Of a stretch of 64,000 nucleotides of DNA, positions 51,712 to 53,213 are shown piece by piece. Each line of letters opens with the position of its first letter. Position 1 is the stretch's first letter. Location: NCBI RefSeq assembly GCF_003611035.1, contig NZ_CP030033.1, positions 3,472,001-3,536,000 on the forward strand, read 5' to 3'. The stretch comes from Cryobacterium soli. GTDB lineage: Bacteria > Actinomycetota > Actinomycetes > Actinomycetales > Microbacteriaceae. The position numbers were made by a program, and so were the translations under genes. The notes under the pieces are model-generated. The model had not been told where the DNA came from, made no database searches, and was given only the letters and a program-made list of their open reading frames with translations.

Positions 51712-51726
51712 CCCGGGCGGCTCATT

Positions 51727-51745
51727 GGTCGAGCTTGTCGAAACC
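51727..51745 (+). repeat. dispersed 19-bp repeat copy (GGTCGAGCTTGTCGAAACC)
   Basis: One mismatch from the copy at 3456. It lies 129 bp from the insertion site of the IS110 element. Confidence 0.8.
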
Positions 51746-51779
51746 CGGTGAGCCGGCCTGCGGCGCGTTCCCGATCGTC

Positions 51780-51798
51780 GGTTGAGCTTGTCGAAACC
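51780..51798 (+). repeat. dispersed 19-bp repeat copy (GGTTGAGCTTGTCGAAACC)
   Basis: Two mismatches from the copy at 3456, same orientation as the 51727 copy, 53 bp apart. Confidence 0.75.
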
Positions 51799-51869
51799 GG
51801 GTGGGCCGTTCCTTGCCCGTTGGTCGGCTTGACCTGTCGTCTCGTAGGGTCTCGATGCTCCTATTGATG

Positions 51870-52936
51870 TCAAGCGGCGATTTGGGTGGTCGCGTGGCGT
51901 TCTTGGACGGCGATGAGGATGGGGAAGATCTCTCGGGCGAGGTAGCGCTTGAGTAGTCGCATGGTGTCGCGTTTGGTCTTGCCGCGGGCGAGGGTTTCTC
52001 GACGTAGGCGCGGGTTTCGGGGTGGCGTTTCATGCGGACCAAGACAATGCGGTGGAACGCGGCGTTGCCTTGCCGGTTGCCGCCACGGTTGAGCCGGTGC
52101 CGGTTCGTTTTCCCTGACGACGCCGGGATGGGTGCGGTCCCGGCTAAGTGAGCGAGGGCGGATTCGGTGCCGATCCGGTCAACGTTCTCGCCCGCGACGG
52201 TCAGCAGCGTCGCGGCAACATCCGGTCCAACCCCATAAACCGCGAGCAGTTCCGGGGCGTAAGCGGTAACGAGGGCGCGGATGCTCTCCTCGAACCGGTC
52301 AGCCTCAAGGCTCAACTCAACGTGACGGCGGCCCAAGGACTTCGCGGCGTCCTTGGTTGCGGCGGTGACGACGTCATCTCCGGCCAGGTCCCGTAGCCTG
52401 GCGCAGGCCTTCGCGAGGTCTTTGGCCTTGAGGCCGGTCAGCTTCGCGCGGAGGGTTTCCGGGGCGCTGACGAGCAGGCTGTGCAGTTGGTTCATGATCT
52501 CGGTGCGCTGCTTGACGACCAGCCGGCGAGACGTGCGGAGGATCCGCATCGCTTCGACTTCACCGTCGCGAAGCTTCGGCACCGTCGTCGCCCGCTTGGA
52601 TAGGACAGCGCGGGCGGCGGAGTACGCGTCGATCTGGTCGGTCTTACCGCGCAGCCGGCGTTCCTGCTTGTCCGGCGCCAGGACGTCAATCACATCGATG
52701 CCCGCGGTGCGCAGCCGCGCGGTGAGGCCGGCACCGTAGGAGCCGGTGCCCTCAACGCCGGCGCGGAGCACGGCGCCTTGCTCGGTGACCCAGCGGATCA
52801 GGTCGGCGTAACCGTCCGGGGTGGCATCGAATTTACGATCCGTGAGGGACTCGCCCAGCGCGCTGATCACAGCGACGTGGTGGAAATCCTTGTGCGTATC
52901 GACGCCGATGATGATCTTTTGCTGATTGTCGGTCAT
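51870..52936 (-). pseudogene. IS110-family transposase with a frameshift near the C-terminus
   Basis: DEDD-type serine recombinase-transposase. The N-terminal RuvC-like domain shows the acidic residues Asp13 (IIIGVDTHKD), Glu62 (GVEGTGSYG), Asp100 and Asp103 (GKTDQIDAYSAA). The C-terminal Transposase_20 domain has the candidate nucleophile Ser273/274 (PIPASSGKTNRHRLNRGG). After residue 314 (HPETRAYVEK) one base is missing at 51991-51994. The expected continuation LARGKTKRDTMRLLKRYLAREIF lies in the -1 frame and ends at TGA 51872-51870, giving about 355 residues if repaired. The unrepaired frame runs on beyond the element's end to 51722 with unrelated sequence. Start ATG 52936. Confidence 0.88.
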
Positions 52937-52959
52937 TCTGGTTACAGCCCTTCTTCGTA

Positions 52960-53150
52960 AGGGTCAGCGTTCAGGGTGCCGGCAGACAGGTCAGTGAAGA
53001 GACTTTAGCCAGGCTCCTATCAGGTCATGATCGGCATCCTGAACGCGACTAATAGACGCCAGAGCCAGGCCAGTCGACGCATCGAGACAAAGACAGCCAC
53101 AGCGTCGGACAAGCTCTGAGTCAGACCAACCCGACCCCGCCTCAATCATC
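52960..53150 (-). ncRNA. IS110 bridge RNA (ends approximate)
   Basis: Reverse-strand leader of the element. Target loop: GAGCTTGTC (53116-53108) equals the left target including core TC; GTCTCGA (53088-53082) is the reverse complement of TCGAGAC, the right target with core. Donor loop: ATAGGAGC (53020-53013) equals the donor left of the core (ATAGGAGCATC at the element's right end); CACTGA (52996-52991) is the complement of TCAGTG, the core plus left end. Order (target loop, then donor loop) and strand sense agree with the IS621 bridge RNA model. Confidence 0.8.
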
Positions 53151-53213
53151 ACTGACAAGCTCGACCGACGAGATGGTGACGTACCCGGGAACGGCGCGAC
53201 CCACCCGAGGCGC

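Follow-up and report, generated by a model that had tools for sequence, protein, structure and literature searches.

A putative bridge RNA in the leader of an IS110 element of Cryobacterium soli, with single-base guide variants and, in its clade, unequal cores

The leader of an IS110 element in Cryobacterium soli almost certainly encodes a bridge RNA of the IS110 type, in which one internal loop would read the insertion site and a second would read the joined ends of the element. The element lies in the window, by which we mean the whole 64,000-nucleotide stretch of contig NZ_CP030033.1 that was analysed; all positions given below are positions in it. Because this conclusion rests on DNA sequence, we infer that the RNA is produced in cells. 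The assignment of the system to the known bridge-RNA kind, represented by IS621 and ISEc21, is well supported, and the Cryobacterium element adds to that kind. Two features stand out as worth following: apparent retargeting by one base within one genome, and unequal cores in the clade that the right guides read as they stand in the product.

Published work already describes bridge RNAs, their guides and the covariation of these guides across thousands of elements, as well as handshake pairing and the targeting of REP sequences (PMC11208160, PMC11208158, PMC1525189); the natural redirection of ISMch6 by three guide bases is likewise on record (PMC11187229). In Cryobacterium, the bridge RNA is readable and can be checked from sequence alone.

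The element and its target repeat

The element occupies positions 51856-53153 on the minus strand, or 1298 bases without its core dinucleotide. A sister genome (G005), in which a genome search gave no match to the element, keeps the insertion site uninterrupted (L063). The alignment of the left flank extends to 53154 and that of the right flank begins at 51855; their overlap of two bases, TC, delimits the element as 51856-53153 with a TC core. This site confirms the ends that had been proposed in the preliminary description, and the other copies have the same ends; insertion therefore took place at the core dinucleotide, without a longer target duplication. The left target, GAGCTTGTC (53154-53162, minus strand, with the core TC at 53155-53154), is present in the empty site, and thus its GAGCTTG half is host DNA that lies outside the element. 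The right target on the same strand, TCGAGAC (51849-51855), is defined by the sequence, the empty site and the other copies, and its TC at 51855-51854 is the core of the right junction. We also considered a misplaced boundary, which would put the covarying left target inside the element; this is ruled out by the empty site together with 88 intact sites in the window genome.

Those sites belong to a REP-like repeat. The window genome (G000), a single contig of 4,385,465 bases, has the element in three copies (100, 93 and 93% identity), and it contains 88 TCGAGCNNGTCGAGA sites, compared with 1 for the same pattern read backwards, which establishes that the target repeat described earlier is real. 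By our own count from the listing, the 88 sites comprise 27 of the TT variant, 27 of the CT variant and 34 others. Half-site copies of the repeat are found directly downstream of the element (51775-51792 and 51721-51739), within the prolonged frame of the recombinase. The empty site of G005 (L063, 2925-3391) is part of a tandem array, with further repeat copies 115 to 169 bases apart; that genome has 521 TCGAGCNTGTCGAGAY sites, yet it is without a copy of the element.

Four putative guides in the leader

The leader is a long non-coding left end of 217 bases (52937-53153, minus strand) situated directly upstream of the recombinase gene. Four guide segments can be read on its minus strand. The left target guide, GAGCTTGTC (53108-53116), includes one position at which other copies have either C or T, in agreement with their targets, and the right target guide, GTCTCGA (53082-53088), is defined by the sequence and by a comparison of 44 elements. 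The left donor guide, ATAGGAGC (53013-53020), matches the right end of the element, and the right donor guide, TCACTGA (52991-52997), complements the left junction TCAGTGA. The segments named in the preliminary description are where it placed them, at 53116-53108, 53088-53082, 53020-53013 and 52996-52991; the last of them, CACTGA, stands as described except that the full guide is one base longer, reaching 52997. Two further bases on the minus strand are candidate handshake bases, placed by analogy with IS621 (PMC11208158): T at 53081 in the target loop, which fits donor position 7 (A), and C at 52990 in the donor loop, which fits target position 7 (G).

When the leader is compared with the four end segments, exact matches in the right order form a best chain that scores 31, a value reached by none of 5000 dinucleotide-preserving shuffles (maximum 28). 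The earlier judgement that four such matches are unlikely by chance is thus borne out, and chance matching is ruled out by these shuffles of the leader together with a permutation over 13 guide types (see below). A scan of the whole window gave no Rfam family at or above its gathering score.

Predicted structure of the leader RNA

The predicted fold of the window leader consists of two hairpins with the guides in internal loops. The first (53050-53148, minus strand) holds the target-binding loop and the second (52963-53049, minus strand) the donor-binding loop. The folding energy of this single sequence is unremarkable (z -1.53; 12 of 200 shuffles fold as well).

When 15 leaders were aligned, a two-hairpin consensus of 37 pairs had 94.2% of its cells paired, with 19 of the 37 pairs changed on both sides, and a covariation score of 0.427. 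Versions of the structure slid by 1 to 3 columns had at most 49.6% of cells paired and scores of at most 0.137, a comparison that favours the consensus in that it was derived from the same 15-leader alignment. The inner helices of the second hairpin are supported; its outer, donor helix is poorly aligned, with 75% of cells paired. An alignment of 18 more diverse leaders was left out of these counts. The two loops thus pass the covariation check. The interpretation offered in the preliminary description, an IS621-like bridge RNA with a target loop followed by a donor loop, is supported, having survived both this check and the comparison of other copies presented below.

Circle junction and recombinase gene

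Joining the right and left ends of the window element would create a promoter-like junction, in which TTGACA, a -35-like box near the right end (51868-51873, minus strand), is followed after 17 bases by GATGAT, a -10-like box at the left end (53145-53150, minus strand). Of 32 distinct junctions, 31 outscore the integrated left end; for four of the 32 (L136, L143, L148 and L149), shuffles equal the junction in 7 to 51% of cases. Promoters formed by joined ends are known for IS621 (PMC11208160, PMC11208158) and ISEc21 (PMC11187229).

The IS110 recombinase frame (51722-52936, minus strand) encodes 404 amino acids. Its product contains the domains PF01548 (DEDD, RuvC-like; 86.6 bits) and PF02371 (Transposase_20; 57.5 bits), and it scores 153.8 bits against NF033542, 'IS110 family RNA-guided transposase' (cut-off 140). 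The protein is distant from that of IS621, the sole match in a search of PDB chains being the ISCro4 transposase (E 1.6e-8). Relative to the two other copies in the same genome (L011 and L012), both with 355-residue frames, the gene has a one-base deletion near 51996, with which the C-terminal part is altered, the usual stop codon is lost and the frame extends beyond the right end of the element. At the right end, about 16 bases separate the usual stop codon and the core. In our own reading of the ISCro4 alignment, the acidic residues and the serine stretch precede the frameshift. With this deletion, normal recombinase is probably not produced from the window copy, which would have to rely on the other two copies in its genome; as a consequence, it is probably mobile only in trans.

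It could well be, although we lean somewhat against it, that the window copy is a dead relic, that is, an element of the bridge-RNA kind whose RNA is no longer made or used. The one-base deletion and the frame that passes the right end are what such a relic might show, whereas the four guides and the junction boxes are intact in this copy, the two 355-residue frames (93% identity) reside in the same genome, and the RNA-encoding region was able to act in trans in both IS621 (PMC11208160) and ISEc21 (PMC11187229).

Agreement of guide and target bases among copies

If the leader encodes a guide, other copies of the element should lie in sites that their own guides describe, and this comparison, which the preliminary description had recommended, came out in favour of its reading. 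The left end could be read in 12 copies of this element type, from four genomes. Every one of them sits inside the same REP-like repeat, and in every one the polymorphic guide base (C or T) is also the base found in the target. Guide and flank are both GAGCTTGTC in the window copy and both GAGCCTGTC in the two other G000 copies. G026 has two copies with C in guide and target and three with T in both, G041 has two with C, and G048 has two with T. Eleven of the 12 copies are delimited at both ends and one (L051) at the left end only. Of the 16 loci fetched, L052 and L058, which are damaged, were left out, as were the five right-end pieces L053 to L057, each of which runs on into GAGAY.

The probability that all 12 copies would agree, when the pools of intact sites are taken into account, does not exceed 7.3e-6. 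T sites make up 27 of 63 in the G000 pool, 17 of 30 in G026, 41 of 112 in G041 and 17 of 143 in G048, where the pools are those of today's intact sites, the C counts for G026 and G041 are upper bounds, and the G000 site pattern is shorter than that of the other genomes by one base, the last. Fisher's test gives 0.0022. The guide base has changed at least three times on the tree of element bodies, and in G026 bodies that are 98% identical carry C and T guides. Two guide alleles in one genome amount to a natural experiment on single-base target choice. In G048, T is found in only 17 of 143 TCGAGCNTGTCGAGAY sites, yet both left-readable copies have a T guide at a T site; the remaining copies in that genome are split at contig ends.

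The same agreement would arise if the left target guide and the target, a 9-base direct repeat about 45 bases apart, had been converted one to the other after insertion, with no choice of site by an RNA. We give this explanation very little credence. The two stretches do interact once, in a damaged relative (L058, G023:C1:1554400-1556466) whose target half, TCGAGCTTGTC, joins directly to the sequence after the left target guide; its left end seems to have been lost as if the target half and the guide had recombined. However, the uninterrupted site in G005 already has the T of the window copy, and other guide types agree with targets that are unconnected to the leader. Moreover, the base preceding the guide differs from the flank in all 12 copies of the window type, and hence a converted stretch would need to have the 9-base length. 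We therefore favour choice of the site by the RNA, in which case a change of one base in the left target guide would send a copy to whichever variant of the repeat matches the new guide.

A leader pattern searched against 398 genomes of the family matched only the window genome's own three copies; this search is uninformative on spread because the sample contained 10 genomes of the genus without G026, G041 and G048, and because the pattern, by reading, would miss the G026 leader.

Guides in related elements

Of 120 relatives searched with the recombinase, 29 gave matches at E 1e-40 or better. The set that we compared has 44 elements, namely the 12 copies of the window element type and the 32 delimited among 40 further loci fetched; the ends of L116, L122, L128, L133, L135, L145, L146 and L147 were not delimited and these were left out. 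A contig scan showed one close relative, L004, and six distant ones, the latter left out. Guides were read at fixed anchors, which gave one pick in each of the 44 elements, with the left target guide starting 20 to 40 bases before the right guide. The choice of anchors followed inspection of the sequences, and the rule for the left target guide was fixed after earlier rules had misread most of subfamily C.

Read in this way, the left target guides fit their targets at 368 of 396 positions and the right target guides at 284 of 301, and the left and right donor guides fit at 333 of 344 and 230 of 264 positions, respectively, in counts over related elements that are non-independent events. Permutation over 13 guide types, with target guides scored at non-core positions, equalled the observed fit in none of 100000 trials for the left target, right target and right donor guides, and in 5 for the left donor guide. 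Weak rows are L127 (5/9), L131 (6/9), and L124 and L129 (7/9) for the left target guide, L136 (4/7) for the right target guide, L136, L143, L148 and L150 (6/8 each) for the left donor guide, and L126 (1/6) and L149 (2/6) for the right donor guide, where the fixed rule picked the wrong place. Subfamily E was considered as an exception to the guide rule and dropped as such; it fits once its left end is placed at TGTGA, a shift that was made after the misfit had been noticed.

Even less credible than conversion after insertion is the idea that the guide-like segments are fortuitous, the recombinase protein alone recognising the repeat and the leader being merely regulatory: the element does have a protein-coding recombinase, four short matches within 217 bases could be picked by eye and the single-sequence fold is weak, but none of the 5000 shuffles equals the leader, guides track targets over the 13 types, and the guide base agrees with the target base in each of the 12 copies despite a nearly identical recombinase, as in the 98% identical C- and T-guided bodies of G026.

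Probable handshake pairing into unequal cores

In IS621, the base beside the right target guide pairs with donor position 7 after strand exchange, and the base beside the right donor guide pairs with target position 7 (PMC11208158). The equivalent base of the target loop fits donor position 7 in 43 of 43 elements, and that of the donor loop fits target position 7 in 42 of 44 (L150 has a G-U pair and L149 a misfit). When the handshake is scored on the 13 types, 13 and 11 hold, respectively, numbers that are reached by 150 and 651 of 100000 permutations. The donor loop was misplaced by the rule in L126 and L149; at the right place, chosen by eye, both fit the handshake.

IS621 and its close orthologues have a CT core, with an almost invariant T in IS621, whereas the core here is TC. 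The clade has C as its second core base in 42 of 44 left junctions and 43 of 43 right ones, and a core of this type broadens the candidate recombinases for genome engineering. Also unlike IS621, the left-junction core differs from the right-junction core in 23 of 43 elements of the clade, in which the left junction is mostly AC and the right junction TC. In all 23 elements with unequal cores, the right target guide reads the donor (right-junction) core, and in none the left-junction core; the right donor guide reads the target (left-junction) core in 20 and the donor core in none. Thus, where cores are unequal, the right guides are complementary to the incoming core, the one expected after strand exchange. 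The view that the left junction retains the core of the target is based on uninterrupted AC sites, one in subfamily B (L031) and two places in subfamily C (L137 and L142); the other three uninterrupted-site rows are these same L137 and L142 places, and empty sites were seen for B and C, not for D, G and H. A check of the target-core pattern in nine genomes gave 12 matches (5 AC, 4 CC and 3 TC) and 22 for the reversed pattern, and hence is no proof alone.

We think it rather probable that target and donor cores are often unequal in nature, that the core bases of the right guides fit the product and not the substrate, that the handshake extends into the core and is under selection, and that single guide bases retarget copies within a genome. 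PMC11208160 gave priority to CT-core boundaries, and unequal non-CT cores may thus, in our view, be under-sampled in the data it describes. With native elements whose cores are unequal, the handshake model of strand exchange can be tested directly.

In the mechanism that we propose, the recombinase would cut the element out as a circle, in which the junction of the two ends would form a promoter-like sequence that drives the bridge RNA and the recombinase. The internal loop of the first hairpin would then read the repeat TCGAGCYTG-TC-GAGAY, to which it fits in sequence, with the left target guide pairing with the bottom strand and the right target guide with the top strand. The second hairpin would likewise read, through its own loop, the joined element ends, ATAGGAGCA-TC-AGTGA. 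By extension from IS621, the top strands would be cut just after the core and exchanged, with assistance from the handshake bases, which would pair with the partner DNA.

Relation to known systems

The recombinase domains, the structured long left end and the presence of target and joined-end guides in two loops place the element in the IS110 group. As in IS621 of Escherichia coli (PMC11208160, PMC11208158), the predicted RNA lies in the left end upstream of the recombinase and has two hairpins, with the target loop preceding the donor loop; the left guides have the sequence of the top strand, to which the right guides are complementary; candidate handshake bases fit position 7, the circle junction would be promoter-like, and the target is a REP-like repeat. 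ISEc21 and ISMch6, with their seekRNA (IS110 group; PMC11187229), are similar in that an upstream non-coding region sets the target. The redirection of ISMch6 involved three bases, two species and one copy (PMC11187229), whereas here it would involve one base and copies within one genome, in both G000 and G026. The IS1111 group (ISPa11, IS4321 and others) has related recombinases and the same guide principle, but its RNA is encoded in the right end and its subterminal inverted repeats are longer (PMC11208160), whereas the guides described here are in the left end. A full-text literature search found no paper pairing Cryobacterium with IS110, and in the literature searched, with most subscription journals outside its coverage, we found no further report of handshake guides or of natural single-base retargeting.

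The target of subfamily E resembles, in our own reading, the codons GAY-AAC of IS3-family transposase genes. Judged by eye from their flanks, the elements L129-L132 (G027, G015, G029 and G037) apparently lie in such genes at a Trp-Asp^Asn-Ala stretch, and subfamily E would thus use a target like that of ISEc21, an IS3-family transposase gene (PMC11187229). The targets of subfamilies F and C occur about 100 bases apart in one repeated sequence (L137, L142, and L141 with L123; G007, G028 and G036), and in G036 one F and one C element sit side by side in that repeat.
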